A DNA stretch of 20,940 nt from an uncultured Roseburia sp. (lineage in GTDB: Bacteria > Bacillota > Clostridia > Lachnospirales > Lachnospiraceae): the NCBI GenBank assembly GCA_947384095.1, contig CANDFU010000001.1, forward strand, positions 1-20,940. Direction: 5' to 3'. The notes under the pieces are model-generated. The model searched no databases. It had not been told where the DNA came from and worked only from the letters and a program-made list of their open reading frames with translations. A program made the position numbers and the translations under genes. Of the stretch, positions 3-19,743 are shown one piece after another (the first letter of the stretch is position 1; the number at the start of each line of letters is the position of its first letter).

Positions 3-983
3 CATTATACCAGAATGGCTGTGCTGCCCAAACTGTATAATAAAAGCCCGGATACCAGGCTCAGACTTCACAATGTCCATCATCTGAACGATCCGCTCGA
101 GGGTGTGCTTCTGATCAATCAGCTGAGAGAAACGCTTCCGGTGGAAAAAGATTCGCTGATTCAGACCTTGTGGGATAAGTACAATTCCGACGAGGGCGGA
201 GCCGTGCGCAATATGGTATATATGGGCAGTTTTACCAGCCGCCTGGATCATCTGAACATGTGGGACCGGTATGGGGACGGTCAGAAAGGAGTCGCGCTCT
301 GCTTCGACGGAAAAGCATATTTTGACAAGGAGGCAAAGATTTCGTTTGCAAAAATGTCTACGAGCGGAAGTTATGGACGTTATAAGGTGGAGGACATAAA
401 ATATCCGCTCTATATGGTTCTTTATCTGCCGGAGAAGAACGGGAAAGGGCTGGAGAAGGCAGAAGAGTATGCCCGTCACAGAGAGGCTGCCGCGGAGGCG
501 GGAAATGATAAAAAAGAGAAAAGCTGGTGGGGGATGCAGGCGGATCTGATCCGTGATCTCATCCGGCTGGAGAAAAAGATCGGGGAATGTCTGGAAGAGA
601 TGCAGAAAGTCTTAAAAAGCATAGAGGAAGAAGGCCGGGAAACAGAGGAGGAACGCCGGATGTACATAAGGCTCAGAGACGAGCTCTGCCATGCCATCAT
701 GGTAATCATTGATCTGGTCCGGTTTCTGATCAAAAGCGATAAATACCGGGATGAGCGTGAATTTCGTGTAATCCAGTATTCGGATGATCCGGAGTGTGAG
801 GGTGAGGGAACGGAGGTTCCAAAGCTGTATATCCCGATTGAAAAAGAACTGGTCTACAAAAGAGTATGTTTCGGGCCGCTTGTCAAGGAATTTGAGTCAA
901 AGGCGGCCTATGTCTTAAATATCAAGAGAAACGGAGCGGATGTGGAGGTGCAGAAGTCGGCCATCTCATTTAAAGAAGGATAG
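3..983 (+). CDS. DUF2971 family protein, 5'-truncated by the window edge
   Basis: The reading frame is open to the first complete codon. Just before the first ATG (position 15) it reads His-Tyr-Thr-Arg, which fits the usual DUF2971 opening (a Tyr-x-Tyr-Thr-like stretch before the NDPxE motif). ATG 15 also has no ribosome binding site, so the true start lies outside the window. Numbered from ATG 15, NDPLEG is at 25-30 and the core block with NMWDRYGDGQKGVALCFD is at 81-98. The C-terminal KYRDEREFR (243-251) matches the family's K-x-x-x-W/Y-x-x-E-x-E-x-R signature. Between these is an unusually long charged helical insertion (about 145-225). DUF2971 proteins have no established biochemical function and often lie in accessory or defence neighbourhoods. 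The stop is 14 bases before the next gene, so it probably shares the operon. Family call fairly secure; function unknown. Confidence 0.8.
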   Translation, partial: HYTRMAVLPKLYNKSPDTRLRLHNVHHLNDPLEGVLLINQLRETLPVEKDSLIQTLWDKYNSDEGGAVRNMVYMGSFTSRLDHLNMWDRYGDGQKGVALCFDGKAYFDKEAKISFAKMSTSGSYGRYKVEDIKYPLYMVLYLPEKNGKGLEKAEEYARHREAAAEAGNDKKEKSWWGMQADLIRDLIRLEKKIGECLEEMQKVLKSIEEEGRETEEERRMYIRLRDELCHAIMVIIDLVRFLIKSDKYRDEREFRVIQYSDDPECEGEGTEVPKLYIPIEKELVYKRVCFGPLVKEFESKAAYVLNIKRNGADVEVQKSAISFKEG

Positions 984-997
984 GCGGGAGGGCGTGC

Positions 998-1675
998 ATG
1001 CGGGAAAGAAGTAAAATATTGATCACGGGAAGCACGCACGGCATCGGAAAGACCGTGGCGGAAAAGTTTCTCGGGGAAGGCTGGGAGGTATATGGCTGCG
1101 GGAGCAGCCGGGATGATAAGAGGGGACCGGATATTTCCGTCGAAGAGGAAGTGAGGGCGCTTTCTGGCTGGTGCGGCGCAGTGGACGCGGCTTTTAACAA
1201 TGCCGGGACGGGATGTGCGCCGGAACCGGCGCACTGCATGGATACCAGTGCGGCGAGGCGGATTCTGGAGGTAAACCTGCTGGGAACAGCTCTTTGCATG
1301 AAATATGAGTGCGCGCAGATGCTGCAGAAGGGCGGTGTGATCGTAAACAGTTCGTCGGTGGCTGCGTTTCGGGCGGCAACCGGGGCCGACCCCGTCTATG
1401 CTGCGTCCAAAGCGGGCGTTCTGCGTCTTACGGCGGAGGCGGCTGTCAGGCCGGAGTACAGAGACCGGATCCGCTTTTTTACAGTCATCCCCGGCTGGAT
1501 TGAAACACGAATGACGGCAATGGATGATAAGCGCGAGTGGGAGAAAAGGCTGCCGGGCGGGCGCGCGGGTACGCCGCAGGAAGTGGCAGAGCTGGTTTAT
1601 CGGATCATAAAAGAACAGGACTGCTTTGATTCGGGGCAGGAATTTCACGTCAACGGGGGAGGGATTCTGGTGTGA
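998..1675 (+). CDS. Short-chain dehydrogenase/reductase (classical SDR)
   Basis: This 225-residue protein has all the hallmarks of a classical NAD(P)-dependent SDR oxidoreductase. The dinucleotide-binding motif TGSTHGIG is at 10-17, NNAG at 67-70, the structural Asn at 93, catalytic Ser at 118-120, and the YAASK active site gives Tyr134 and Lys138. The C-terminal VNGGG (218-222) is the usual substrate-loop ending. The ATG at 998 is preceded by GGGAGGG (986-992) at good spacing. It is somewhat shorter than the usual 245-255 residues, mainly between the first strand and NNAG. Its stop overlaps the GTG start of the next gene by 4 bases, so translation is probably coupled. Substrate cannot be read from sequence. 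The neighbours (epimerase, aminotransferase, glycosyltransferase) suggest oxidation or reduction of a sugar or sugar-derived alcohol, which is inference. Confidence 0.9.
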   Translation: MRERSKILITGSTHGIGKTVAEKFLGEGWEVYGCGSSRDDKRGPDISVEEEVRALSGWCGAVDAAFNNAGTGCAPEPAHCMDTSAARRILEVNLLGTALCMKYECAQMLQKGGVIVNSSSVAAFRAATGADPVYAASKAGVLRLTAEAAVRPEYRDRIRFFTVIPGWIETRMTAMDDKREWEKRLPGGRAGTPQEVAELVYRIIKEQDCFDSGQEFHVNGGGILV

Positions 1676-4248
1676 GTAAAAGAAGAACAGACGGGCAAAA
1701 ACGGGTCAGCGGTATCCTGATGGCGCTAAGCAGCCTGCCGGGGGCTTACGGCATCGGGGATCTGGGAAAAGAGGCCAGGTACGCGGCGGACTGGATGAGA
1801 CGGGCCGGATTTACACAGTGGTCGCTTCTTCCGCTGAACCCGACCAGCCACGGGGACAGCCCGTATCAGAGTCCCAGCGCGTTTGCCGGAAATATCAATT
1901 ACATATCGCCGGAACTTCTGGCGGAGGACGGGCTGCTGGGGCCGGAGGAAGTAAAAGAGGCCGTTTCGGGGACGGAGGGCAGGGTGGATTACGGTGAACT
2001 GTTTGTGACGCGGCCGAAGCTCCTGCGCCGCGCGTTCCGGCACTTTGCGGAGCAGGGCGGCTGCGAGAGAGCGGATTATTGGAAATTCTGCCGGGAAAAT
2101 GAGGACTGGCTGGGCGACTATGCCGCTTTCATGACGATCAAGGAAAAAATGGGCTATCTTCCCTGGCAGCAATGGCCCGGGGCGCTGGCGCACCGGAAAG
2201 AACCGGAATATTCCCGGTATCTGGAGCAGTGGAAAGAAGATACGATGTTCTGGGAGTTTACCCAGTATCTTTTTTTCAGCCAGTGGATGCGGCTTAAGGA
2301 ATATGTCAACGGACGGGGAATCGGGCTGATCGGCGATATGCCGTTTTATGTCGCGCATGACAGCGCGGACGTCTGGAGCCACAGGGAGTTGTTTGCCGTG
2401 AGCCGGGAAACCGGAAAGGTGACGATGTGGGCAGGCGTTCCTGCGGATTATTTTTCGGGACGTGACCGAAACTGGGGAAATCCGGTCTATGCGTGGGAAA
2501 GTCATGAGGCGGAACATTACCGATGGTTCCGAAACAGGATAAAAGTCAGCGGGGCGATGTATGACGGCCTGCGGATTGATCATGTCATCGCGGCGAGACG
2601 GTATTTCGGGATCCGGGACGGGGAGAAAACGGGTGTGTGGTATGACGGTCCGGATCTGAATCAAAATCAGTTTACACAGGCAGTCCGGGAAGAGGCGGAG
2701 CGGGCCGGGTTATCCGTGATTGCGGAAGATCTCGGGGAGGTTCCGCCGGGCTTAAGAGAGCGGATGCACGAAATCGGATGGCCGGGGATGCGCGTCTTAC
2801 AGTTTGCTTTTACAGGGGCTTACGGGCCCAAAAGCAATCATCTTCCGTTTTACCATGACAGGGACATGGTGGTTTATACCGGAACGCATGATCACCCGAC
2901 GCTGAAAACGTTTCTGGAGAAGAAAACAGAGGAAGAGCTGCAATATATGAAATGGTGGACCGGGAAGCGCACGCGCAGCGAGCTGAGATGGGCGCTGATC
3001 GAGGAGGCGTACAAGTCTGTGGCCGACCAGGTGATGATCCCGGTTCAGGACATACTGGGGTACGGGGAAGAGGCCCGGCTGGTTTTTACTGAGGAACCGG
3101 AGCGTTCCTGGAAGTGGAGGATTAAAAGCCTGGCGGAGTTTTCGGAAGAGGCGGCTCTGAGAATGAAAAAAACGGCGGTTCTCACAGGGCGGTATGAAGA
3201 TGCGAAAGAAATGCCGGAAGGCCTGGCCAGGAATAAAACCGTCATACTGGTTACGGGCGCTTCCGGCTTTATCGGCACGAATCTGACCGGGCGGCTTTTA
3301 AAAGAAGGATATGCCGTGATCGCAGTGGATACGGAAAAGCCGCAGATTTCCTATGAGGGATACCGCCGGAGTGAAATCATCGGAACAGATGTCTGTTCCT
3401 TTGATCTTCTGACGGTAAACGGCGACATCGGAGACGAAACGCTGCTGGAAGAGATTTTCCAGTATGAGATCGGATATGTGATCCACCTGGCCGCGCTCTC
3501 GACAATCCAGCTCGGGGCAGTCAGCTATGAGGAGACGATGCGCGTGAATGTGAAAGGGACAGAGACTCTGCTTCGGGCGGCGGAGAAAGCGGGCGGCGTG
3601 AAAGGATTTGTCTATGCGTCGACCGACAAGGTTTACGGAGAGATGCAGTCACAGGCGTATACGGAGGAGATGCCGTTACATCCGTCCGTTTCTCCTTACG
3701 ATCTCTCGAAGGCACAGGCGGACGAGCTGGTGCGAAGGTGGGCAAAAGAGCGCGGAGGGCACGGGATTGTGCTTCGATTCTGCAATATTTATGGAAAATA
3801 CGACCGGAAGGCGACGCGTATCGTTCCCGGGACAATGCAGTCCCTGTTAAAAAAGCGCGGGTGCGTGCTGCGGATGTTTCGTGACGAAGAGGGGCACATC
3901 AGAAATTTCGGGAGGGATTTTCTGTATGTGGATGATCTGTGCGGGGCAGTCTGTGATATATTAAAAAAACTGGATATATGGAATCGGGATGAGACGGAAG
4001 CGATGTGGGGGGAGGCGTTTAATCTCGGCACAAAGCATTGTTATCCCATGGATGAGATGATATATAAGATGCAGATGCTGACCGGAATCCATGTGCTTCC
4101 GCAGATCGAGCTGTCAGAAGCGGGGGCAGAGGTCACGCAGCAGTGTATGGACTATTCCAGGGCCCGGGAAGTTTTTGGTTTTCTGCCGGGGACGTCCCTT
4201 GAGGACGGACTTGCGGCCGTTGCGGAATGGTGGAAAGGAAATCTATGA
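1672..4248 (+). CDS. Fusion: GH77 4-alpha-glucanotransferase + NAD-dependent epimerase/dehydratase
   Basis: One 858-residue frame encodes two complete enzymes. Residues 1-508 are a MalQ/amylomaltase (GH77): the early SPYQSPSAFAGN motif (64-74), nucleophile Asp303 in RIDH, acid/base Glu352 in AEDLGE, and the third acid Asp407 in GTHDH. The domain ends with the usual family C-terminus. After a linker of about 13 residues, 522-858 form an extended-SDR sugar-nucleotide epimerase/dehydratase: TGASGFIG (528-535), Ser650-Thr651, and Tyr676-x3-Lys680. GH77 transfers maltooligosaccharide units between glucans; extended SDRs usually act on UDP-, GDP- or dTDP-sugars. The GTG start follows GGGGGAGGG and overlaps the previous stop. 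No frameshift or stop separates the halves, but internal ATGs near 3163 and 3211 might also yield a separate epimerase. MalQ is normally standalone (about 500 residues), so the fusion is unusual. The epimerase substrate is unknown. Confidence 0.9.
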   Translation: MSKRRTDGQKRVSGILMALSSLPGAYGIGDLGKEARYAADWMRRAGFTQWSLLPLNPTSHGDSPYQSPSAFAGNINYISPELLAEDGLLGPEEVKEAVSGTEGRVDYGELFVTRPKLLRRAFRHFAEQGGCERADYWKFCRENEDWLGDYAAFMTIKEKMGYLPWQQWPGALAHRKEPEYSRYLEQWKEDTMFWEFTQYLFFSQWMRLKEYVNGRGIGLIGDMPFYVAHDSADVWSHRELFAVSRETGKVTMWAGVPADYFSGRDRNWGNPVYAWESHEAEHYRWFRNRIKVSGAMYDGLRIDHVIAARRYFGIRDGEKTGVWYDGPDLNQNQFTQAVREEAERAGLSVIAEDLGEVPPGLRERMHEIGWPGMRVLQFAFTGAYGPKSNHLPFYHDRDMVVYTGTHDHPTLKTFLEKKTEEELQYMKWWTGKRTRSELRWALIEEAYKSVADQVMIPVQDILGYGEEARLVFTEEPERSWKWRIKSLAEFSEEAALRMKKTAVLTGRYEDAKEMPEGLARNKTVILVTGASGFIGTNLTGRLLKEGYAVIAVDTEKPQISYEGYRRSEIIGTDVCSFDLLTVNGDIGDETLLEEIFQYEIGYVIHLAALSTIQLGAVSYEETMRVNVKGTETLLRAAEKAGGVKGFVYASTDKVYGEMQSQAYTEEMPLHPSVSPYDLSKAQADELVRRWAKERGGHGIVLRFCNIYGKYDRKATRIVPGTMQSLLKKRGCVLRMFRDEEGHIRNFGRDFLYVDDLCGAVCDILKKLDIWNRDETEAMWGEAFNLGTKHCYPMDEMIYKMQMLTGIHVLPQIELSEAGAEVTQQCMDYSRAREVFGFLPGTSLEDGLAAVAEWWKGNL

Positions 4249-5441
4249 TCAGTGAAGTGGTAAAACGATTATTCGATTATATGGAGGCGGGTCTGCCGCA
4301 GGATCAGGCGCCGCTGCGCACCCTAAACGCTGTCGGCAGTTATCCGCTGGCCTACCGGACGTTCGGCGGGCAGGCGCAGGGAAACGGGGATCTGGACGAT
4401 GCAGTCATGGAGACGGCGTTCGGCAGTCATTATCTGCTGACGATGCTTTGTTCCGGGGCCGTGATACGGCGGATCCTGTACCGGGAGCCGCAGTCATACC
4501 ATAGTCTTTACTGCGACGGAATGACATTCCGTTTTCTGGACCGCCACGGCCTTGCGGAGCACGGCGTGTGGGACCGGATAGACCATGCGGCGCTGGATGA
4601 AAATATTACGATGAATAATGTCGACCACCGCATTTACTATTCGGCCGCCAAACCGTTTGCGCTGCTGAAGGAAGCGGGAATCGCGGGGGAGAAGGGGCTC
4701 CCGGTTCTGTTTGTGGATGCCGATCTTATTTTAAAAAAGCGCCATGACGCAATCCTGCGGCATCCTGAAACGATACGGGCTGCATACGGGCATCTGGAAG
4801 CGATCGGGACGTCCTGCTATCCGGACTTTACGGGACTTCATTTCCCGGAAGGGTATCGGCTGCCGCCGTACCGTACCGATCTGCCCGCTGTCAATACCTG
4901 TCTGATGTATTTTCGGGATCTGGAGCTGATGGCGGAGTGGAGCCTGTTTTTCAAAGATCTTTTTCTTGACAACCGGGTCGACGGGGAGCCGGACGCCGTT
5001 ACGATTTCAAGGCAGCTTCTGGGAATTGACCAGCGCACGTTTCCCATGATCGCAGACCATCACGGGTATTGGAAAGACGGGCAGGTGGAGGCGTTTCTTG
5101 ATCTTATCTGGGATCCGCCGTATTTTCGCCACAGCAGAACGGGAGAGACCGGAGAGTGGCATTACTACACGCTGGAATATCACCCGGAGCATGCAGACTG
5201 GCTGCAGGATATCACGCACACCTGGATTAACAAGCGGAATATCGAACGTGATCTTATGTACCGGAATTACCAGGGCTGTATGATGCTGGAAATCATTCTG
5301 GAGCTGGAACCGGGCATGGAACCGTATCTCGTTTCGTTTGACAGCCTGAAGCCGTATTTTGATCTGAGAAAACAGTATGGAACGATTGAAAATATGCTTT
5401 TGTCCGGCGCGGTGAGAGACCGGCTGGATAAGGAGTGCTGA
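4245..5441 (+). CDS. Putative GT-A-like glycosyltransferase, family not recognised
   Basis: I do not recognise a named family. The 398-residue protein carries LFVDADLILKK around 155-165, where Asp158-Ala-Asp160 looks like the metal- and nucleotide-binding DxD motif of GT-A glycosyltransferases. About 55 residues on, AVNTCLMYF (215-223) resembles the 'N-T-G-V-M-x-F' acceptor-side segment of GT8-like enzymes. The rest is rich in Trp, Tyr and His, and no signal peptide or membrane segment is evident, so it is probably cytoplasmic. I chose ATG 4245 because AAAGGA lies about 5 bases upstream and the ATGA overlaps the preceding stop by 4 bases; an in-frame ATG at 4227 is less well placed. Its position between an epimerase and an aminotransferase fits a role in sugar transfer. 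That role is inference, and another nucleotide-diphosphosugar enzyme is possible. Confidence 0.6.
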   Translation: MISEVVKRLFDYMEAGLPQDQAPLRTLNAVGSYPLAYRTFGGQAQGNGDLDDAVMETAFGSHYLLTMLCSGAVIRRILYREPQSYHSLYCDGMTFRFLDRHGLAEHGVWDRIDHAALDENITMNNVDHRIYYSAAKPFALLKEAGIAGEKGLPVLFVDADLILKKRHDAILRHPETIRAAYGHLEAIGTSCYPDFTGLHFPEGYRLPPYRTDLPAVNTCLMYFRDLELMAEWSLFFKDLFLDNRVDGEPDAVTISRQLLGIDQRTFPMIADHHGYWKDGQVEAFLDLIWDPPYFRHSRTGETGEWHYYTLEYHPEHADWLQDITHTWINKRNIERDLMYRNYQGCMMLEIILELEPGMEPYLVSFDSLKPYFDLRKQYGTIENMLLSGAVRDRLDKEC

Positions 5442-5464
5442 AGAGAGGGGACAGGAGGACAGGG

Positions 5465-6763
5465 ATGCCGCAGGATACGGAAAATGAAAACAGCCGGCTG
5501 CTGAAACGGCTGGCGAAATATCTGCCCCGGGGGTGTATCAGGGAAGGAGACCACGTTCCGGTGAGCGGGAGCGGGAGTTTTTATACCGACGCGCAGGGGA
5601 AAGAATACCTTGATTTCTCTTCCGGGATTTTTACCAATTCGTTCGGCCACGGGTGTGCGCGCCTGAACCAGGCGGGATTTAAGCAGGCAGAACGGCTTGC
5701 CAACATTCACGGCAGACACTGTGCGGCCGAGCTCACGTTTTACCGTCGGCTGTTTTCGCATCTCCCTGCAGAGGATTACAAGGCCATTCCGTATAATGAC
5801 GGTGGATATACGATTGACCGCGGGTTATCGGACGTGATCAATCACTTTGGAAAGCGGCGCGTCGGAATCGCGGCGTATCGCAATGGGTTTCACGGAAAGA
5901 CGCAGGCGGGAAAGCTCCTGATTAACGAGACCCGGAAGGCGGCGCTTTACGACAATTTTCAGATTGACTTTCCGAACTGCTACCGGTGTCCATGGAAAAA
6001 GAAAAAGACGGCCTGTGATATGGAGTGTGCAGAAGCGGCGTGCAGTAAGCTGAGGGAAAAGGAAGCCAGGGCGCTTATCTTCGAGCCCGTGCAGGGGGCC
6101 GGTATCCTGGTTCCGCCTCCGGACTACTGGAAGGCGATAGAGAGATTCTGCAGGGAACAGGGGATTGTTCTGTTTGCGGACGAAGTGTTGACGGGCGGCG
6201 GACGGACGGGGGAATACCTTGCCTGTACCCGTTTTGGGATTGTGCCCGATCTGATCGCGCTCACAAAAGGGCTTGCCAATGGGAAACCGCTCTCCGTGCT
6301 GCTGGAGCGCGAGTACCTCACCGGGAACCAATACGCGGTAAGGCCGCTGGAGCGTGCGTCCACGTTTGCCGCGCATCCGGAGGCGCTGGCGGTCGCCGGG
6401 GAGCTGCTTTTGATGCTGGAAGAAGGAGAGATCCTGCCGCGCGTCCGGCGGTACGGAAAACTGCTTGCGGAAGGGCTTGCAGAGCTTCCGGGGCGTTTTT
6501 TGCAGGTCGGCGATGTGCGGAGCTTAGGGCTTATGGCGGCGGTCGAGTTTGTGCGGGATAAGGAGTCGAAAGAGCCGGATCCCCTGTTTTCCATGCGTGT
6601 GTTCGATCAGTGCAGGAAAAGTGGCCTGGAGACGATCGGGGGAGGCCATATCCTCCGCCTGGCGCCGCCGCTGAATATCGAGGAGGACGACCTGCTGCGG
6701 GGCCTTGCCATCCTTGCGGAATGTATCGCAGAAGTACAGGCGGGAGGGATGAAGAGTGAATGA
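5465..6763 (+). CDS. Class III pyridoxal-phosphate aminotransferase
   Basis: The 432-residue protein is a fold-type I, class III aminotransferase (GABA/ornithine/diaminobutyrate type). FADEVLTGGGRTG places PLP-binding Asp239, and ALTKGLANGKPL places the Schiff-base lysine at Lys268. GFHGKTQAG (141-149) is the usual aromatic-His-Gly PLP-stacking segment, and STFAAHP (299-305) is the phosphate-binding segment. NCYRCP (171-176), followed by four more cysteines up to 193, resembles a cysteine-rich segment I recall from GabT-like relatives. The usual N-S-G-x-E-A motif before the HG segment is replaced by NDGGYTID (111-118), which may reflect unusual substrate or cofactor handling. ATG 5465 is chosen for AGGAGG at 5453-5458; a GTG at 5435 is in frame but lacks this. 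It is 23 bases behind the previous gene and overlaps the next by 8 bases. It probably aminates a keto-sugar or similar intermediate, which is inference. Confidence 0.88.
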   Translation: MPQDTENENSRLLKRLAKYLPRGCIREGDHVPVSGSGSFYTDAQGKEYLDFSSGIFTNSFGHGCARLNQAGFKQAERLANIHGRHCAAELTFYRRLFSHLPAEDYKAIPYNDGGYTIDRGLSDVINHFGKRRVGIAAYRNGFHGKTQAGKLLINETRKAALYDNFQIDFPNCYRCPWKKKKTACDMECAEAACSKLREKEARALIFEPVQGAGILVPPPDYWKAIERFCREQGIVLFADEVLTGGGRTGEYLACTRFGIVPDLIALTKGLANGKPLSVLLEREYLTGNQYAVRPLERASTFAAHPEALAVAGELLLMLEEGEILPRVRRYGKLLAEGLAELPGRFLQVGDVRSLGLMAAVEFVRDKESKEPDPLFSMRVFDQCRKSGLETIGGGHILRLAPPLNIEEDDLLRGLAILAECIAEVQAGGMKSE

Positions 6764-8228
6764 TTTTTATTGTATGCGTTTTTATGTCACTTACCGGTGC
6801 AATTCCAGATGCAGTTACTGTAATGTCTGGCAGGAAGACCGTTTTCGCGGTGTAAAAGAGCTTGCGCCGGAAGAGGCGGAGAAACTGATCCGGCAGTGTT
6901 ATGACGTCGGCGTCCGCTATATCGATTTTACCGGGGGCGAGCCGACGTTGTACCCGCATCTCATAAGACTGGTGCGGTACGCAAAAAGCCTGGGGATTAA
7001 AACGGAAGTCACGACGAACGCCATTTCAAACGATTCCGGCCGGATGCGCGAGATCGCCGGGTGCGTCGATAAGTGGAATCTTTCGCTGGACACATTAAAT
7101 CCGGATACCTATCGAAAAACCAGGGGTGTGGACTGTTTTGACGCGGTGTCAGAGACGCTGAGGGAAACCATTAAGGTCCGCCGGCCGAAAATCATGACCG
7201 TCGTCTCCGCTGAAAATGAATCGGAGCTGGACAACCTGATTTCTTTTGCGCAGCGCAATGGGGCCGAGATTTATTTAAATCCGGTCTTTTCTTACTTTGG
7301 AACGGCGCACCCGGAGGATACGGCGGAATTTTCACAGCGGATTCTTGAGCGGATATATCGGCCCTGTACGGTTGTCATGCTGCATTTCCTGGAATTTTAC
7401 CGGGAGGGGGCCGACAGGCCGCCCTGCTCCGCCAACATAAGGACGCTGACCTTTGCGCCGGACGGCGCCCTTGTGCTTCCCTGTTACCATGCCATGCGGG
7501 AAGTGATTTCCTGGAGCGGAAGCCTTGACAAAATGCTGGCGGACGAGCGGTTTAAGGCGTATGGACGGCAGGCAGAAACATCCTCTTGCAGAAATTGTAA
7601 TGTGGTCCCTTATTTCGGGATCTCATTTAATTACCGGCTGGATTCTTTTTTCCTGATGCAGTCCTACACGGAAAAATTAAATCATTTAAAGCGCGATTTC
7701 TTAAATGACATCACCGGATGGGAGCGGGAGGAAGGCAGGCTGCACCTTCATCTGCAGGAGCTTCTCGCGATCCTGCGTTCCCTGCGCATCGAGAGAACGC
7801 AGGATGAGGAATGGCTCTATCGGGCGGATTGGACCGGGGCGGGGTATCGGACAAAAGTTTACCGGAAGGCGCTGGATCGGGCGGTTTATGCCCGGGAACG
7901 GCAGGCACAGGACTGCTGGCAGCTCACGCTGGTCCCGCATCACGGGTTTGATCAGATTTATGAAAAGGTTTACCGGAAGCTGTACCGCGGCATAAAAGCG
8001 GGGGAGTACGGGGAAGCGGCTCTCGGGCTGTTAAACAGAGCGGCCGAATTTCAGCTCCGGTGGTGGAAATGGTATGTGAGTAAATATATGAATGTCACGA
8101 TAAAGTGCAGGGCCGACCGGGAGGAAGCATGGCTTTCTGCGTATCTGGAGCAGATCGCCGCATGGGGAGACGCGCAGGGGGACGGGGAGGCCGTGCAGGC
8201 GGCCGGAGAGCTTATGCAGGATTTTTGA
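6756..8228 (+). CDS. Radical SAM protein with SPASM-like cysteines and long C-terminal extension
   Basis: This 490-residue protein opens with the radical SAM cluster motif C-N-S-R-C-S-Y-C (Cys15, Cys19, Cys22), followed by GGEP (60-63), the SAM-binding motif. A second cysteine region at about 225-290 (PPCS, LPCYH, and the pair SSCRNC) resembles a SPASM/twitch domain, which would bind an auxiliary iron-sulphur cluster. The last 190 or so residues are helical, rich in Trp, Tyr and Arg, and match nothing I recognise. Radical SAM-SPASM enzymes modify peptides, sugars or cyclitols. The aminotransferase, epimerase and glycosyltransferase next door favour a sugar-type substrate, and I found no precursor-peptide gene nearby. 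The GTG start at 6756 has GGGAGGG about 8 bases upstream and overlaps the previous stop; the ATG at 6774 is an alternative. It is the last gene of the operon. Confidence 0.88.
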   Translation: MNDFYCMRFYVTYRCNSRCSYCNVWQEDRFRGVKELAPEEAEKLIRQCYDVGVRYIDFTGGEPTLYPHLIRLVRYAKSLGIKTEVTTNAISNDSGRMREIAGCVDKWNLSLDTLNPDTYRKTRGVDCFDAVSETLRETIKVRRPKIMTVVSAENESELDNLISFAQRNGAEIYLNPVFSYFGTAHPEDTAEFSQRILERIYRPCTVVMLHFLEFYREGADRPPCSANIRTLTFAPDGALVLPCYHAMREVISWSGSLDKMLADERFKAYGRQAETSSCRNCNVVPYFGISFNYRLDSFFLMQSYTEKLNHLKRDFLNDITGWEREEGRLHLHLQELLAILRSLRIERTQDEEWLYRADWTGAGYRTKVYRKALDRAVYARERQAQDCWQLTLVPHHGFDQIYEKVYRKLYRGIKAGEYGEAALGLLNRAAEFQLRWWKWYVSKYMNVTIKCRADREEAWLSAYLEQIAAWGDAQGDGEAVQAAGELMQDF

Positions 8229-8256
8229 TTGTAAATTCCGGATAGTCTGTTATAAT
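8229..8256 (+). promoter_or_regulatory. Sigma-A-type promoter upstream of the nuclease-helicase gene
   Basis: TTGTAA (8229-8234) and a perfect TATAAT (8251-8256) are separated by 16 bases, directly behind the stop of the radical SAM gene. Transcription would begin near 8263 and leave a leader of about 105 bases before ATG 8369. No hairpin-plus-U-tract terminator separates it from the upstream operon, so readthrough is possible. Confidence 0.65.
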
Positions 8257-12235: not shown

Positions 12236-12280
12236 ATGGCTTTGCGCTGTAACAGGGCGCAGGAAAGAGGAAAGATATGA
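12236..12280 (+). CDS. Possible 14-codon leader ORF coupled to the flavoprotein pseudogene
   Basis: ATG 12236 has GGAG at 12225-12228, 7 bases upstream, and encodes MALRCNRAQERGKI before TGA 12278-12280. That stop overlaps the ATG at 12277 of the next gene in an ATGA arrangement. Good spacing and stop-start coupling are what is expected of a translated leader ORF. At this length the pattern could arise by chance, since AGAGG at 12266-12270 could equally serve the downstream ATG directly. Confidence 0.25.
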   Translation: MALRCNRAQERGKI

Positions 12281-13747
12281 TTCGTATCAGTCAGATCAGA
12301 CTGCCGCTCCGGCACACGGACGCACAGCTGGAGCAGAAAATAGTGAAGATATTGAAATTAAAAGAAGAGACAGCGTTTACATACCGGATCGTAAAGAAGT
12401 CCATTGATGCGCGCAAAAAACCGGAATTATTTTATTCCTATGCCGTCGACGCTGAGCTTGCGGGCGAAGAGGCGGTTTTAAAGAAGGTGGACGACCGGAA
12501 TGTGACAAAGGTTACGGAAAAAAAATATGTGATTCCGGCGTGCGGGACGAGGAGAAGGGACGACCGTCTGCCCACCGTGATTGCCGGGGCAGGGCCGGCC
12601 GGGCTTTTCTGCGCCTATGCGCTTGCGCAGAGCGGTATTGCGCCGGTTGTGATTGAGCGCGGGAAGCGGGTGGAGGAGCGGATGCGCGACGTGGCGTTCT
12701 TCTGGGAGACCGGTATTTTAAATCCGGCCTCGAACGTGCAGTTCGGCGAGGGCGGAGCGGGGACTTTTTCGGACGGAAAGCTCAATACGCTGGTGAAAGA
12801 TCCGGCCGGCAGAAATCGGTTTGTGCTGGAAACGTTTGTAAGGTTCGGGGCGCCGGAAGAGATTCTTTATGAAGGCAGGCCGCATATCGGGACAGACGTC
12901 CTCTCCGGCGTGATCGGGCGCATGCGCACGGCGATGGAGGAGATGGGAGTCATTTTCCGGTTCGGGACGTGCCTAACGGATTACCGGACGAAAGATGGAA
13001 ACCTAAAGGAGATCGAACTTGATCACAAAGAATGGATGCCGGCCGGACGCCTCATCCTTGCGATCGGGCACAGTGCACGTGATACATTTGGGATGCTTGC
13101 CGGCGAAAGACGGCAGGGGCGTTTACACGTTCTGTATGTGCCCGGGCGGTTATGTTGTCAATGCCTCGTCGGAGGAGGGAAGGCTTGCCGTAAACGGCAT
13201 GAGTTACTCCGGCAGGACCGGGAAAAATGCCAACAGTGCGGTGATCGTCACCGTCACGCCGGCGGATTTTTTTGCGTCGGACGGCCCGGACGCGCTGGCC
13301 GGCGTCCGCTTTCAGCAGAGGCTGGAGGAGCGTGCCTGGGCGCTGGCCGGCGGAAAGATTCCGCAGCAGTTGTTTGGCGATTACTGCAGGAACCAGGTTT
13401 CGGCGGATTATGGTTCTTTTGTCAGCGCGGCGAAGGGAGCGTGCGCTTTCGGTAATCTTAAGGGGCTTCTCCCGGCTTCGCTGGAAAAAGCCTTTGTCGG
13501 GGGGATGCATCGGTTTTCACGCCAGATCCGGAACTTTGACCGGTATGATGCGATTTTATCCGGAGTGGAGTCGCGGACGTCCTCTCCGGTGCGGATTCCG
13601 AGAAAAGAAGACTTTATGTCTGCAGTCGCGGGAATTTATCCCTGCGGGGAAGGCGCCGGATATGCGGGGGGAATTATGTCGGCGGCGATGGACGGGCTGA
13701 AGGTTGCGGAAGCAGTTGCCCGTTCGCTGAAAAAGGATGTTGATTAA
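12277..13747 (+). pseudogene. COG2509-type FAD-dependent oxidoreductase, broken by internal deletion and frameshift
   Basis: Residues 1-276 of the first frame are a good member of the COG2509 flavoprotein group: an N-terminal 90-residue domain, then FAD-binding GAGPAG (104-109), the FGEGGAGTFSDGKLNT stretch, and LILAIGHSARDTF. Near 13090-13112 this frame loses similarity and runs on as nonsense to 13455. The family's next conserved block, GRGVYTFCMCPGGYVVNAS, resumes in the +1-shifted frame and continues to the natural C-terminus (ending at TAA 13747), including GEGAGYAGGIMSAA. About 40-45 residues expected between the ARDTF and GRGVYTF blocks, including the usual RIEHPQ stretch, are missing. 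This is therefore a deletion of about 130 bases that also breaks the frame, not a simple one-base error. The start ATG 12277 has AGAGGAAAG upstream. Function in this strain is probably lost. Confidence 0.85.
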
Positions 13748-13892: not shown

Positions 13893-16541
13893 GTGGCAGA
13901 GTACACACCGATGATGCAGCAATATCTGCAGACAAAAAAAGAATATAAGGACTGCATTCTTTTCTACCGTCTCGGGGATTTTTACGAGATGTTTTTTGAG
14001 GATGCACAGATTGTCTCGAAGGAGCTGGAACTGACGCTGACCGGGAAAAACTGCGGGATGGAGGAGCGGGCCCCGATGTGCGGCGTTCCGTTTCACGCGG
14101 TGGAGGGGTATTTAAACAGACTGGTCGCAAACGGGCACAAGGTTGCGATCTGTGAGCAGGTGGAGGATCCGAAGCTGGCGAAAGGCCTGGTAAAGCGCGA
14201 GGTGATCCGCATCGTCACGCCGGGAACAAACATGGATGCACAGGCGCTCGACGAGTCGAAAAATAATTATATTATGTGTGTCGTCTATCTTGCCGATAAA
14301 TACGGTATTTCCTTAGCGGACGTGTCGACGGGAGATTATTTTGTGACGGAGGTCGACAGCGAGCGCAGGCTTGTGGACGAGATCACAAAATATACGCCCT
14401 CTGAAATCGTGTGCAGCGAGAGCTTTTATATGAGCGGCATGGATTTCGAGGACTTAAAGCAGCGGCTCCACATTACCATTTATGCATTGGACGCGTGGTA
14501 TTTTGAGGATGAGCTGGCGAAAAAGACGCTGACGGAGCATTTTAAGGTGAAAAGCCTGGAAGGCCTGGGTCTGGCGGACTATGACTGCGGCGTGATTGCG
14601 GCCGGGGCGCTCTTAAAATATCTGTATGAGACGCAGAAGAACGGCCTGGAACATATTTCCGCCATCCACCCGTATTCCACCGGAAAATATATGATTATCG
14701 ACAGTTCGACCAGGCGGAATCTGGAGCTCGTAGAGACCCTCAGAGAAAAGCAGAAACGCGGTTCCCTGCTGTGGGTGCTGGATAAGACAAAAACCGCCAT
14801 GGGGGCGAGGCTTCTCCGCTCTTACGTGGAACAGCCGCTGGTTGATATGGAAAAGATTGAAAGGCGGCAGGACGCCATCTGTGAGCTGAACCGCCATGTC
14901 ATCACGCGGGAAGAGCTGCGGGAGTATTTAAACCCGATCTATGATCTGGAGCGTCTGATCACCCGTGTCACCTATCTGACGGCCAATCCCAGGGATCTGA
15001 TCGCGTTTCGCAATTCCATCGGGATGCTTCCGCCCATCAAGGCTCTTCTGGACGAATTTGAAAGCGGCCTGTTGAAGAATATCCGGGAAGATATGGACAC
15101 GCTGGAAGAATTGTATGATCTGATCGACGTGTCGATTCTGGAGGACGCGCCGATATCAGTCAGGGACGGCGGACTGATCAAAGAAGGGTATCACGAGGAA
15201 GTCGACCGCTGCCGCAGCGCCCGGACGGAGGGTAAAACCTGGCTGGCAGACTTAGAAGCAAAGGAACGGGAAAAGACCGGGATTAAAAATCTGAAAATCA
15301 AATACAACAAGGTTTTCGGTTATTATCTGGAAGTCACCAATTCCTACAAAAATCTGGTCCCGGATTATTTTACCAGAAAGCAGACGCTTGCCAACGCCGA
15401 GCGTTATATCACGCCGGAATTAAAAGAGCTGGAAGATATGATCCTGGGCGCGGAGGACAGGCTTGTCACGCTGGAATATGATCTGTTCTGCGAGGTGCGG
15501 GAGAAAGTTGCCGCGCAGGTGGTGCGCATCCAGCGGACAGCCAAGGCCGTCGCCGGCCTGGATGTGCTGGCGTCCCTGGCCCTTGTCGCGGAGCAGAACA
15601 ATTACTGCCGCCCGAAGATCAGCGATAACGGTGTGATCGACATTAAAAACGGCCGTCACCCGGTCGTGGAAAAGATGATCGCAAACGATTTGTTTATCGA
15701 CAATGATACTTATTTAGACAACGGAAACAACCGCATTTCCATTATCACCGGGCCAAACATGGCCGGGAAATCAACTTATATGCGGCAGACGGCCCTTATC
15801 GTGCTGATGGCCCAGATCGGCAGCTTTGTCCCTGCCTCCTCCGCAAAAATCGGCATTGTGGACCGCATTTTTACCCGCGTCGGCGCATCGGATGACCTCG
15901 CGAGCGGCCAGAGCACGTTCATGGTGGAGATGAACGAGGTCGCCAATATCCTGCGCAATGCCACGTCCGACTCTCTTCTGATTTTAGACGAGATCGGGCG
16001 CGGGACGAGCACATTTGACGGTTTAAGCATCGCCTGGGCGGTGGTGGAGCATATCAGCAACCCGAAGCTGCTCGGGGCGAAGACGCTCTTCGCCACGCAT
16101 TACCACGAGCTGACGGAGCTGGAGGGCAAGCTTGGAAACGTAAATAATTACTGTATTGCCGTCAAGGAAAAAGGAGACGATATCGTTTTCCTGCGAAAGA
16201 TTGTAAAAGGCGGGGCGGACAAGAGCTACGGCATTCAGGTGGCGAAGCTGGCCGGAGTGCCGGATTCGGTGATCGGCCGCGCAAAAGAGATTGTGGAAGA
16301 GCTGGCCGCGAACGATATCACCGGCGCGGCGCGCACCATCTCCGTGCACCGCGGGGGAAAAAAGAAAAAAGAACGCCTGGACGAAGTGGACTTAAGGCAG
16401 ATGTCGCTGTTTGACACGGTAAAAGATAACGATATCATTGAAGAACTGCGCAATACCGATCTCGGCCATCTGACGCCGATCGAGGCGCTCAACAAGCTTT
16501 ATGAACTGCAGAATAAAGTTAAAAACCGCTGGCAGGGCTGA
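13893..16541 (+). CDS. mutS: DNA mismatch repair protein MutS
   Basis: The 882-residue protein is a full-length MutS, which binds base mismatches and small loops to start mismatch repair. The mismatch-wedge motif GDFYE (Phe30-x-Glu32) lies in the N-terminal domain. The ATPase has Walker A GPNMAGKST (620-628) and Walker B LILDE (Asp699-Glu700), followed by GRGTSTFDG. Near the C-terminus QMSLF (836-840) fits a beta-clamp-binding motif, which would tether MutS to the replisome. The N-terminal YTPMMQQYLQTK is the usual family opening, so the GTG start at 13893 (with GAGG about 9 bases upstream) is well supported. It has its own promoter and is followed 45 bases later by mutL. The sequence appears intact. 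Confidence 0.98.
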   Translation: MAEYTPMMQQYLQTKKEYKDCILFYRLGDFYEMFFEDAQIVSKELELTLTGKNCGMEERAPMCGVPFHAVEGYLNRLVANGHKVAICEQVEDPKLAKGLVKREVIRIVTPGTNMDAQALDESKNNYIMCVVYLADKYGISLADVSTGDYFVTEVDSERRLVDEITKYTPSEIVCSESFYMSGMDFEDLKQRLHITIYALDAWYFEDELAKKTLTEHFKVKSLEGLGLADYDCGVIAAGALLKYLYETQKNGLEHISAIHPYSTGKYMIIDSSTRRNLELVETLREKQKRGSLLWVLDKTKTAMGARLLRSYVEQPLVDMEKIERRQDAICELNRHVITREELREYLNPIYDLERLITRVTYLTANPRDLIAFRNSIGMLPPIKALLDEFESGLLKNIREDMDTLEELYDLIDVSILEDAPISVRDGGLIKEGYHEEVDRCRSARTEGKTWLADLEAKEREKTGIKNLKIKYNKVFGYYLEVTNSYKNLVPDYFTRKQTLANAERYITPELKELEDMILGAEDRLVTLEYDLFCEVREKVAAQVVRIQRTAKAVAGLDVLASLALVAEQNNYCRPKISDNGVIDIKNGRHPVVEKMIANDLFIDNDTYLDNGNNRISIITGPNMAGKSTYMRQTALIVLMAQIGSFVPASSAKIGIVDRIFTRVGASDDLASGQSTFMVEMNEVANILRNATSDSLLILDEIGRGTSTFDGLSIAWAVVEHISNPKLLGAKTLFATHYHELTELEGKLGNVNNYCIAVKEKGDDIVFLRKIVKGGADKSYGIQVAKLAGVPDSVIGRAKEIVEELAANDITGAARTISVHRGGKKKKERLDEVDLRQMSLFDTVKDNDIIEELRNTDLGHLTPIEALNKLYELQNKVKNRWQG

Positions 16542-16586: not shown

Positions 16587-18656
16587 ATGCCCGAAATTAC
16601 GGTATTAAGTCAGGAAACGATTGACAAAATCGCAGCCGGAGAAGTGGTGGAGCGTCCCTCTTCGGTTGTAAAAGAACTGGTGGAAAATGCGATCGACGCC
16701 AGGGCGACGGCTGTCACGGCCGAGATCAGGGAGGGCGGTATTTCGTTTATCCGCATTACCGACAACGGCTGCGGCATCGCGCGTCCACAGGTCCCGATTG
16801 CATTTCTGCGTCATTCCACCAGCAAAATCAAGAGTGTGGAGGATCTTTTTCACGTCACATCTTTGGGATTCCGCGGCGAGGCGCTCTCGAGTATCGCAGC
16901 GGTGGCGCAGGTGGAGCTGATTACCAGGACGTATGGTGAACTCACAGGTACCCGCTATGTCATAGAAGGTTCCAGGGAAAAAGAAAACGAAGAAATCGGG
17001 GCGCCGGACGGAACCACATTTATTGTCCGCAATCTTTTTTATAATACCCCGGCCAGGCGGAAGTTTTTAAAGACGGCGCAGACGGAGGGAAACTATGTCA
17101 ACGACCTTATGGAACGTCTTGCCTTATCCCATCCCGATGTCTCTTTCAAATTTATAAACAATGGGCAGACAAAGCTGCACACTTCCGGAAATTCCAGCGA
17201 AAAAGACCTGATTTACCATATTTACGGACGGGATATCACATCGTCCCTTCTGCCGCTCGATGTGGAAACGGATTTTTTTTCGGTAAAAGGGTTTATCGGG
17301 AAGCCGTCCGTGTCGCGCGGCAACCGGAATTTTGAAAATTATTTTATCAACGGCCGGTACATTAAGAGCAGTCTGCTTTCCAAGGCTGTCGAGGAGGCGT
17401 ATAAGGGGTTTTTAATGCAGCGCCAGTATCCGTTCTGCGTTCTCTATCTGGATATGGACAAGGAACTGCTCGATGTGAACGTGCATCCGGCAAAGATGGA
17501 ACTGCGCTTTTCGCACAGCGAGGAAATCTTCCGGGAACTCTGCCGTCTGATCAGAGATGCGCTGACGCGCAGGGAACTGATACCGGAGGTACCGGTGAAA
17601 GAGAAAAAAGGAGAAAAGCGTCCTGTCGTCAAGGCGTCCATTCCGGAACCGTTTGAGAAAAAGCGGCTTGACGATATCCGCAGCGCCGTGGCCGGAGACA
17701 GCCCTTATCAGAAAAAATATCCACAGCGGGAAGGAGCCGGGACAAGACAGCCGGAGCCGGGGGAGTCGAAGCGCTTTTTTGACAGACTCATGCCGCGGCG
17801 GGAGGAAAAAGAGCGGACGGAAGCCGAAAATCAGAAGGACATGCGGCAGAAGCCGCAGGGAAAGCCGGAAGTATCACAGAAAACGGAAATACAGGCGGCG
17901 GGAGCGGAGTCTGCCGCTGCAGACGCAACAGGGCAGGATGAGATGTATATGGCAGAGCAGGCGCCGGATACCGGCCGGGCTGCGTCTTTCGTGGCGGAAC
18001 AGACGATGCCCTCCCCACAGATTTACGATCAGCAGACGTTTCTCACCAGGGAAAACGGTTTTCTGACAGAAAATGCGGTCAGAAAGCACAAGGTGATCGG
18101 ACAGTTATTTGACACGTACTGGCTGGTGGAGTACGAGGACAGGCTTTTCGTCATCGATCAGCACGCGGCTCACGAAAAAGTATTATATGAAAAAATGATG
18201 GCGCGGCTGAGAAAGAAGGAATTTACATCGCAGGCCGTGAGCCCGCCCGTCATACTGACGCTGAGCGTCAAAGAACAGGAAACGCTAGAAAGATACGGAG
18301 AGCAGATCAGGATGTCCGGCTATGAGATCGAACCCTTCGGCGGAAAGGAATACGCCATCAAAGCCGTTCCTGCGGAGTTTGACGCGGTTGACAAGAAAAG
18401 CATGTTTCTTGAACTGCTCGACGACTTTTCCGGCCTGGGAGGGAAAGATGCGCCGGAACAGATCCTCGAAAAGACGGCCTCTATGTCCTGCAAGGCCGCT
18501 GTAAAAGGAAGCCAGCGCTTAAACCGCGCGGAAATGGAAGAACTGATCACGGAACTTTTATCCCTCGACAATCCGTATCACTGTCCGCACGGGCGGCCGA
18601 CCATTATCTCGATGAGCCGGTATGAGATTGAGAAAAAATTTAAACGCATTGTATAG
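16587..18656 (+). CDS. mutL: DNA mismatch repair endonuclease MutL
   Basis: This is a complete 689-residue MutL. The GHKL ATPase motifs are all present: ELVENAIDA, DNGCGIA, TSLGFRGEALSSIA, and GTTFIVRNLFYNTPARRKF. A low-complexity Glu/Lys/Arg/Ala linker (about 345-500) leads to the C-terminal dimerisation domain. That domain carries the endonuclease motif DQHAAHEKVLYE (524-535) and the zinc-binding CPHGRP (666-671), so this MutL nicks DNA itself, as is usual in organisms without MutH. I start the gene at ATG 16587, preceded by GGGAGGA (16574-16580) and giving the canonical MPEITVLSQETIDKIAAGEV opening. An upstream in-frame ATG at 16551 would add 12 residues without family support. It forms an operon with mutS and ends at the terminator just downstream. 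Confidence 0.98.
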   Translation: MPEITVLSQETIDKIAAGEVVERPSSVVKELVENAIDARATAVTAEIREGGISFIRITDNGCGIARPQVPIAFLRHSTSKIKSVEDLFHVTSLGFRGEALSSIAAVAQVELITRTYGELTGTRYVIEGSREKENEEIGAPDGTTFIVRNLFYNTPARRKFLKTAQTEGNYVNDLMERLALSHPDVSFKFINNGQTKLHTSGNSSEKDLIYHIYGRDITSSLLPLDVETDFFSVKGFIGKPSVSRGNRNFENYFINGRYIKSSLLSKAVEEAYKGFLMQRQYPFCVLYLDMDKELLDVNVHPAKMELRFSHSEEIFRELCRLIRDALTRRELIPEVPVKEKKGEKRPVVKASIPEPFEKKRLDDIRSAVAGDSPYQKKYPQREGAGTRQPEPGESKRFFDRLMPRREEKERTEAENQKDMRQKPQGKPEVSQKTEIQAAGAESAAADATGQDEMYMAEQAPDTGRAASFVAEQTMPSPQIYDQQTFLTRENGFLTENAVRKHKVIGQLFDTYWLVEYEDRLFVIDQHAAHEKVLYEKMMARLRKKEFTSQAVSPPVILTLSVKEQETLERYGEQIRMSGYEIEPFGGKEYAIKAVPAEFDAVDKKSMFLELLDDFSGLGGKDAPEQILEKTASMSCKAAVKGSQRLNRAEMEELITELLSLDNPYHCPHGRPTIISMSRYEIEKKFKRIV

Positions 18657-18665
18657 CCGGAAGCA

Positions 18666-18717
18666 AAAAGCCCCTCTTTCGTTCATGGTAATGCCGGGAA
18701 TGAAAGAGGGGGCTTTT
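18666..18717. terminator. Bidirectional intrinsic terminator between mutL and the DUF5050 gene
   Basis: Arms at 18666-18684 and 18698-18717 form a stem of about 18 pairs (AAAAGCCCCTCTTTC against GAAAGAGGGGGCTTTT, with one bulged base and one G-T pair) and a 13-base loop. A-rich sequence on one side and T-rich on the other let it act in both directions. It sits 9 bases after the mutL stop and 3 bases beyond the stop of the convergent gene. Confidence 0.9.
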
Positions 18718-18720
18718 CGT

Positions 18721-19743
18721 CTATTTTTCTTCTTCTGCGCCCGGATTAAAGATATTGACCATTCCTCCCGGTGTGATACTGGTGTAATACATCGTGCCGT
18801 TTGAGAAATCGCTGAAATAGACGTAGCGTGAGGTGGCGTTGATGTCGGTATAGTTGCCTTCCGCGATCACCGCATATTCCGTTCCGTCCGTGCGCATCCG
18901 GCAGAGGGCGGGGGAGACGGGATCATTTTTCTGGAAGAAAATATAGTTGTCTACGATATTATAACAGTCTACCCGGTCTCTCGTGAGCAGAGTCACGCTG
19001 CCGTCAAGCAGGTTTGCCCGTGCAAGCGCATAATTATTGTCACAGTCCAGAAAATAGGCGTCGCTTCCGACTACAATGGGCATCCAGCAGTTTCCGTTGT
19101 AGATCATGCGGGAAGTGTCGGTGGCCGTATCGTGCTGCCAGATATAGTGATCGCTTGCAATCCCGTTGTGATAGAAATACTGTCCGTTTGTCGAGCAGGT
19201 GAAAAACGGCTGGTCGCTGACCTGTTCTCTTCCGGAAGCGTCGATTTTTACCTTATAAAGCGTGGAAGCGGTCTCTTTTTCATATCTGACATAATAAATG
19301 TAGTCTCCGAGCAGGGAAGCATACATACTGGGTTCCTGGTCTAAGATCACCTCTGATCTGCCGTTTTCACGGTTGACGCGGCAGAGACTGTCCGTTGCGG
19401 AATCAAGAAACGCGTACTGGTGAGTTGCCCTTGGGTTGGTGCGGATATAATAAACGTAGTGTTCGTCCACATTGATGTAAGTCACGACATCGTCGGACAG
19501 TTTTTTCAGATCGGTACCGTTTATGCCCATGGAATAGAGCCTGTGTCCGTCCGAGGGATTGGCAAAAAAGATGGTCCCGTTGTCCTCGCAGAAGAGACCG
19601 GTGTTGTAGAGGTTTCCGGCCGTGTTTCCATTGACGTAAGAGCGGTTGAACTTTGTCCTGCTGTTCCACAGAAAGAATGCGCCGGTGCCTACAGCACAGA
19701 GCAGCAGCGTCAGAATAACAATCAGTGGTATGTGCTTTTTCAT
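18721..19743 (-). CDS. Membrane-anchored DUF5050 beta-propeller-like protein
   Basis: The 340-residue protein starts with MKKH, then a hydrophobic segment (about 5-25) that should act as a signal anchor or uncleaved signal peptide, placing the rest outside the membrane. The body is a series of repeats of roughly 45 residues with the pattern 'Y-I/V-Y-Y/F ... L-Y-x-V/M ... G', for example HYVYYI, DYIYYVRY, QYFYHN, NYIFFQ and RYVYFSD. This is typical of DUF5050 domains, predicted to fold as a beta-propeller related to the LRP/YWTD type. The function is unknown, though an extracytoplasmic sensing or binding role is common speculation. The start is supported by GGGGGAG (19752-19758 on this strand) 8 bases upstream. 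It converges on mutL across the shared terminator. Confidence 0.85.
   Translation of the reverse strand: MKKHIPLIVILTLLLCAVGTGAFFLWNSRTKFNRSYVNGNTAGNLYNTGLFCEDNGTIFFANPSDGHRLYSMGINGTDLKKLSDDVVTYINVDEHYVYYIRTNPRATHQYAFLDSATDSLCRVNRENGRSEVILDQEPSMYASLLGDYIYYVRYEKETASTLYKVKIDASGREQVSDQPFFTCSTNGQYFYHNGIASDHYIWQHDTATDTSRMIYNGNCWMPIVVGSDAYFLDCDNNYALARANLLDGSVTLLTRDRVDCYNIVDNYIFFQKNDPVSPALCRMRTDGTEYAVIAEGNYTDINATSRYVYFSDFSNGTMYYTSITPGGMVNIFNPGAEEEK

Follow-up and report, generated by a model that had tools for sequence, protein, structure and literature searches.

The window analysed here, the whole of contig C1 (CANDFU010000001.1, 20,940 nucleotides) of an uncultured Roseburia sp. (genome G000, 62% complete), carries at positions 998 to 8228 an operon for a classical short-chain dehydrogenase/reductase (SDR), a fusion of a GH77 4-alpha-glucanotransferase with an extended SDR, a putative GT-A-fold glycosyltransferase (GT), a class III aminotransferase (AT) and a radical S-adenosylmethionine (SAM) enzyme. 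This operon is real, conserved and patchily distributed. From the enzyme families and from biosynthetic precedent we propose, as a tentative reading that falls a little short of an even chance, that it is dedicated to the biosynthesis of a malto-oligosaccharide modified with an amino sugar, in a manner similar to the branch of acarbose biosynthesis that supplies the amino sugar. The features of the region are:

3 to 983, plus strand: DUF2971 protein, C-terminal part, the 5' part of the gene lying beyond the contig end (PF11185, 31 bits)
998 to 1675, plus strand: classical SDR, 225 aa, predicted oxidoreductase (PF13561/PF00106; adh_short_C2, 110.7 bits)
1672 to 3195, plus strand: GH77 (MalQ-type) 4-alpha-glucanotransferase domain of an 858-aa fusion (PF02446, 451.9 bits; NF011080, 496.1 bits)
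3241 to 4248, plus strand: extended-SDR (epimerase/4,6-dehydratase-like) domain of the fusion, active-site motif STDK (PF01370 Epimerase, 155.8 bits)
4245 to 5441, plus strand: putative glycosyltransferase with the GT-A fold in its model (ORF from 4227; without Pfam or NCBIfam model)
5465 to 6763, plus strand: class III pyridoxal phosphate (PLP)-dependent aminotransferase (ORF from 5435; PF00202 Aminotran_3, 204.4 bits)
6756 to 8228, plus strand: radical SAM enzyme, putatively of SPASM/twitch type judging from its fold and its cysteines (PF04055 Radical_SAM, 92.4 bits)
8229 to 8256, plus strand: promoter-like TTGTAA-16-TATAAT with TG, directly after the stop of the radical SAM gene (10/12 matches)

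Conservation and layout of the operon

A scan of genome contigs yielded three loci with the GT (GT identity 88, 70 and 68%), and the classical SDR of the window is 82, 67 and 65% identical to those of loci L002, L003 and L004, respectively. The order SDR, GH77, extended SDR, GT, AT, radical SAM enzyme is kept in L002 and L003; the contig of L004 stops after the GT with the same gene order to that point, and the radical SAM enzyme of its genome lies on another contig. Co-occurrence of the families in the same order, which an earlier note on this DNA had put forward as a check, was therefore found in L002 and L003 and, up to the contig end, in L004. Constraint on the coding sequences was seen in comparison with L002, with dN/dS values of 0.08-0.19 for six genes (the DUF2971 part included), next to 0.09 for dinG and 0.06 for mutS as comparison genes. 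That these genes form a conserved unit is near certain.

Five consecutive open reading frames (ORFs), all on the plus strand, span positions 998-1675, 1672-4248, 4227-5441, 5435-6763 and 6756-8228. The earlier note had described these five ORFs with junctions of 4, 4, 23 and 8 bases, and the ORF frames and the sequence bear this out. SDR and GH77 overlap by 4 bases (GTGA), the extended SDR and the GT by 4 bases (ATGA) given a GT start at 4245, which is favoured by L003, and the AT and the radical SAM enzyme by 8 bases, whereas GT and AT are separated by a 23-base gap, given an AT start at the ATG at 5465, which has AGGAGG ahead of it and a homologous ATG in L002. The enzyme classes that had been read from motifs agree with the Pfam matches for SDR, GH77 plus Epimerase, Aminotran_3 and Radical_SAM.

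The stop of the DUF2971 gene precedes the SDR start by 14 bases, and a relative is found in the same position in L002 (849 aa) and in L003 (two ORFs), with no match in L004. This gene is the probable first gene of the same transcription unit, so that the unit of five genes proposed earlier stands in its order and junctions and is amended in that the cut DUF2971 gene (3-983) is probably included. The L002 copy (4167-6716) matches PADLOC candidate PDC-S31 (3e-8). At the other end, the promoter-like site at 8229-8256 probably serves the next gene, which is dinG-like, and the operon would therefore end at 8228; the site counts as weak evidence because four promoter-like sites were found in the region when 4.4 were expected from shuffles, that is, no excess. 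In the window, dinG-, mutS- and mutL-like genes come after the operon.

Distribution and linkage of the operon genes

The operon is rare and patchy. In surveys whose counts include the own or seed genome, true GT matches were obtained in 2/62 genomes of the genus, 1/397 of a family sample (3 further weak partial matches), 2/392 of the order (G483 weak besides), 1/391 of a class sample (3 further weak partial matches), 1/37 of the genus of G457 and 1/38 of the family of G671, and the radical SAM enzyme was found at 1e-40 in 1/348 genomes of the phylum. A pattern search of viral contigs hit 52 stretches, none of them a relative. A dinG match was present in 23/24 same-genus genomes searched, and in the 13.5-16 kb upstream of dinG in 8 of these 23 the operon genes were absent save for a weak extended-SDR match (31% over 160 aa).

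Wider linkage was assessed by counting GT, radical SAM and GH77 clusters as linked when their longest contigs have identical size, using one longest contig per cluster and the best 120 radical SAM and best 120 GH77 matches, so that this evidence is indirect. Operon-type GH77s are defined here, by a cut of our own, as those with at least 53% identity (P0191-P0228, n = 38). At a GT identity of at least 66%, 25 of 40 GT clusters lie on contigs of at least 8 kb, the window's own included, and among the matches listed these contigs match that of a radical SAM enzyme in 12/25 cases, of an operon-type GH77 in 16/25 and of either in 19/25 (the window's GT and GH77 counted). For the GT group at 51-58% identity, 8/16 contigs match one of a listed radical SAM enzyme, and for the most distant GT group 3/3 do. 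As controls, 0/70 GT contigs match those of 39 far radical SAM enzymes or 74 canonical-like GH77s. GH77 P0236, which has a related loop, matches the contig of a radical SAM enzyme at 46% identity.

Aminotransferase, radical SAM enzyme and a Streptomyces cluster

The PLP-lysine of the AT stands in the context TKGLANG. When 72,556 plasmids were searched, a single cluster proved to contain the top matches of both enzymes: for the AT at 38% over 98% (the next one listed at 32%, among 1827 matching records), and for the radical SAM enzyme at 34% over 94%, the sole record covering at least 80%. This cluster is on a plasmid of Streptomyces sp. NBC_00467 (NZ_CP107895.1, about 126-164 kb; locus L029), and by BLASTP the AT is 39% identical to that of L029. 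Among the Streptomyces radical SAM relatives (P0154-P0190), L029 is the one whose gene context was read. The cluster contains genes for a sedoheptulose-7-phosphate cyclase, a cupin, the AT, three ABC-transporter genes, kinases, a GT, a sugar-phosphate nucleotidyltransferase, NUDIX and HAD proteins, malQ, GMC and aldo/keto oxidoreductases, the radical SAM enzyme and glgA, with rfbB and a glucose-1-phosphate thymidylyltransferase gene at most 9 kb from the cyclase; judged by this gene make-up it is an acarbose-type cluster, of which no characterisation was found in the literature. It resembles the operon in holding the nearest plasmid relatives of AT and radical SAM enzyme as well as malQ and rfbB, and differs from it in the cyclase, the GMC oxidoreductase, the aldo/keto reductase, the kinases, the transporter genes and the glycogen-synthase-type GTs. 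On the same plasmid (L071, 15985-20376) a blasticidin-like set, annotated as cytosylglucuronate synthase, blsE and blsF, lies near the acarbose-type cluster.

In the radical SAM enzyme, the CX3CX2C motif (C15, C19, C22) and C224, C243, C281 and C387 are invariant and C278 is nearly so. The best fold matches of its model (pLDDT, the predicted local distance difference test score, 90.8) are SPASM/twitch enzymes, but the Pfam matches include none to a SPASM domain. As SuiB ranks at the top (23.6 and 22.9) and MoaA scores the same as BlsE (22.2), the reaction cannot be read from the fold. A role in the synthesis of ribosomally synthesized and post-translationally modified peptides was rejected, the enzyme being below cut-off in all NCBIfam matches listed (25 of 52), although no precursor search was made.

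BtrN (butirosin), BlsE (blasticidin) and DesII (desosamine) act in sugar or cyclitol chemistry and share with the operon enzyme the radical SAM fold and a putative auxiliary-cluster region; the operon enzyme differs in a long C-terminal part, barely covered by the fold comparison, and in scores below the cut-offs among the matches listed. This likeness could also fit an aminoglycoside- or aminocyclitol-like small molecule, in which radical SAM enzyme and AT would act as a pair and the GH77 would merely supply glucose units. We regard that as unlikely, given that the fold is no guide to the reaction, that the BlsE model scores 47.4 against 400, and that no cyclitol synthase was found in the four operon genomes. 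The core of the enzyme (residues 8-163) is also matched by pVip at 77.5 bits, which, together with the rare and patchy occurrence and the PDC-S31 match of the L002 DUF2971 protein, might suggest an anti-phage or conflict system. The viperin equivalog NF038283 gives 69.9 against a cut-off of 180 bits, however, the enzyme has extra conserved cysteines and the long C-terminal part, and the SDR, the GH77 fusion, the GT and the AT are without PADLOC match, which makes this explanation highly improbable.

GH77 and SDR enzymes

The GH77 domain belongs to the 4-alpha-glucanotransferases (NF011080, cut-off 477; TIGR00217, 289.8 against 205.65) and has in common with housekeeping MalQ the family and the catalytic motifs RIDH, IAEDLG (EDLG) and THD. 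It differs from MalQ in that the F after RIDH is replaced by V or A, in that the RGFxxYY/YW loop is changed to IAxxRYFG, the altered loop of the operon enzyme reading RIDHVIAARRYFGI, and in that the operon type adjoins or is fused to SDR enzymes. The signature RIDH[VA] was present in 36/38 operon-type GH77s (the other 2 without RIDH), while RIDHF was present in 53/74 canonical-like ones (21 without exact RIDH). The GH77-epimerase fusion described earlier is present in the window but is a minority state: 3/38 operon-type GH77s, the window's own among them, are fused to an extended SDR, and L003 and L004 encode the two in separate ORFs. P0235 is fused instead to a classical SDR, and its contig size (79,824) matches that of a GT and a radical SAM enzyme. 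All four operon genomes (4/4) have a second GH77, which is in pieces in G000 and G458, and in this they agree with acarbose producers, where a dedicated GH77 stands beside a housekeeping one.

The extended SDR has the active-site motif STDK in the window, L003 and L004. Asp-Lys in place of Asp-Glu occurs in CDP-glucose 4,6-dehydratase and in FlaA1, which has 4,6-dehydratase chemistry. The domain also aligned with rfbB of L071, and 7/10 of its plasmid matches listed are named rfbB. STDK and the rfbB names argue against a plain GalE-type epimerase, which is nevertheless still a candidate, since among solved structures a 4-epimerase comes closest.

The putative glycosyltransferase

For the GT, no Pfam family was found at E 0.001 and no NCBIfam model. 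A DxD motif at residues 164-166 of the 404-aa ORF is invariant, and the AlphaFold model (pLDDT 91.9) resembles GT-A-fold enzymes, in agreement with the GT-A-like assignment made earlier; the operon GT would represent a new GT-A-type family without Pfam or NCBIfam model. Foldseek placed RmlA first (E 1.5e-4, TM scores 0.29/0.38), which raised the possibility of a nucleotidyltransferase. VIA-align placed glycogenin and GT6 at the top, tied with Z scores less than 1 apart and at about 9-10% identity. As the DxD is invariant, we prefer a GT to a nucleotidyltransferase.

A glycogenin-like fold would also suit a modified storage or cell-surface glucan, in which an alpha-glucan would be initiated or capped by the GT-A enzyme, lengthened by the GH77 and blocked or marked at its ends by the amino sugar, so that the product stays a polymer. 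Glycogenin is tied with GT6 in that comparison, however; inspection by eye of the genes next to the operon in L002-L004, where nine neighbour proteins were run against Pfam, revealed no polymerase, flippase or branching enzyme, and the AT and radical SAM relatives are located in a cluster of small-molecule type, so that a polymeric product appears improbable. A capsule or exopolysaccharide locus was put aside, as none of the listed ORFs of at least 100 or 150 aa in L002-L004 looked by eye like a flippase, a polymerase or an initiating transferase; the nine proteins checked include a 649-aa protein of L004 without Pfam match. The earlier suggestion of a capsule building block accordingly finds no support in these three loci, and the storage-glucan and amino-sugar-glycoside options offered with it are possible.

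Proposed pathway and comparison with acarbose biosynthesis

In acarbose biosynthesis, AcbA, AcbB and AcbV are described as making thymidine diphosphate (dTDP)-4-amino-4,6-dideoxyglucose (PMC8234114), AcbI as transferring that amino sugar onto maltose (PMC9200736), and AcbQ as elongating acarbose and acarbose 7-phosphate, with a housekeeping MalQ also present (PMC10146171, PMC11205506). The clusters for acarbose and acarviostatin (acb, gac, sct) are, as described, like the operon in combining a 4,6-dehydratase-like enzyme and an aminotransferase with a dedicated 4-alpha-glucanotransferase beside the housekeeping one. The operon differs from them in the additional radical SAM enzyme and classical SDR, in having no exporter and no C7-cyclitol synthase found, and in its GT-A enzyme, which does not belong with the GT5-like transferases AcbI and AcbS. 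The term 'radical SAM' is absent from the acarbose papers of the open-licence PMC literature that were text-searched for it. The earlier note knew of no characterised pathway with this gene set. While no paper on the set was found in the same literature, AcbB, AcbV and AcbQ follow the same logic, and the claim is further undercut by the joint occurrence of the best plasmid relatives of AT and radical SAM enzyme in an acarbose-type cluster.

In the pathway that we propose, whose substrates and products all derive from the enzyme families and from precedent, the STDK extended SDR would convert a nucleotide hexose to a 4-keto sugar, most likely as a 4,6-dehydratase-type enzyme, and the class III AT would convert the keto group to an amine, as AcbV does, so that a nucleotide-activated amino-deoxyhexose, probably one not yet described, would result. 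The GT-A enzyme would then move the amino sugar onto a malto-oligosaccharide acceptor, the job of AcbI, which is a different GT, and the operon GH77, of the altered-loop subfamily, would make or extend the glucan acceptor or product, like AcbQ beside housekeeping MalQ. The radical SAM enzyme and the classical SDR would add a further redox change, for example an oxidation of an unactivated carbinol of the kind described for BtrN. A C7-cyclitol would play no part, leaving the amino-sugar half of acarbose without the cyclitol half.

Several results weigh against this proposal. A C7-cyclitol synthase (2-epi-5-epi-valiolone synthase or sedoheptulose-7-phosphate cyclase) was not found in the four operon genomes searched with the L029 cyclase: three of the four gave one match each, which is AroB (378, 369 and 368 against a cut-off of 305 bits, the cyclase itself scoring 222), and G000, which is 62% complete, gave none. 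For this reason the operon is not classed as an acarbose cluster, and with its other GT its pathway is not identical to that of acarbose. No exporter or nucleotidyltransferase is encoded within the operon. The extended SDR has STDK, not STDE, scores 121.9 against a cut-off of 365.1 with TIGR01181 (RmlB) and so is not assigned to the dTDP-glucose 4,6-dehydratases, and has as best solved relative UDP-glucose 4-epimerase 4zrm (104.8 bits), ahead of DesIV 1r66 (93.7). In the classical SDR, a 42-base in-frame gap relative to L002 removes 14 residues, by eye near the third Rossmann strand, which could mean an impaired enzyme or an assembly error at this place. The Streptomyces link rests on a single record, the malQ of that cluster is 26% identical to the operon GH77 over 416 residues, and the GT had no match among the plasmids searched. 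For the operon AT, of class III (PF00202), the comparison was with the AT of the cyclase-containing cluster (38-39% identity); AcbV is a class III aminotransferase. Around a more distant radical SAM relative in Bernardetia (30% over 60%), neither a GH77 nor a class III AT is annotated. The GT group at 51-58% identity shows GH77 linkage for 0/16 contigs among the matches listed, and G671, from another family of the same order, contains a distant GT whose 19.9-kb contig bears none of the operon partners, and a search of G671 at 1e-20 found no such radical SAM enzyme. Finally, AcbQ is described as dispensable for acarbose itself in vitro (PMC9200736).

If the proposal is true, anaerobes that are possible competitors for starch would have a reduced form of acarbose-like amino-oligosaccharide biosynthesis that includes a radical enzyme. 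The operon offers a small enzyme set for testing the role of a radical SAM family also found in the acarbose-type Streptomyces cluster. A more specific version, which we consider rather unlikely, is an acarbose-like amino-oligosaccharide of anaerobic Lachnospiraceae, made independently of oxygen and without a C7-cyclitol: a portable module of AT and radical SAM enzyme, common to the Streptomyces pseudo-oligosaccharide-type cluster, would aminate an unactivated sugar position, the new GT family would attach the sugar and the repurposed GH77 would tune the glucan, giving an inhibitor of alpha-glucan enzymes between competing bacteria.

Neighbouring genes

After the operon, L003 encodes a macro-domain protein (14155-15501; PF01661, 72.8 bits) with membrane-like stretches by eye. 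Proteins encoded at 5692-6675 of L004 and 8058-9146 of L023 form one family (28% identity over 108 aa, E 3e-11 against 3 sequences) without Pfam match, which immediately precedes the operon SDR in L004 and in G671 neighbours the lone GT. In the window, a gene for a FAD-dependent dehydrogenase-like protein (12277-13747) is split between two ORFs of 392 and 242 aa that overlap, where L002 has a single ORF of 531 aa (17860-19455). Near the contig end, a 104-aa ORF on the minus strand (20127-20441) contains, by eye, a short leading stretch that passes into the first part of a DNA cytosine methyltransferase-like sequence, followed by a stop.
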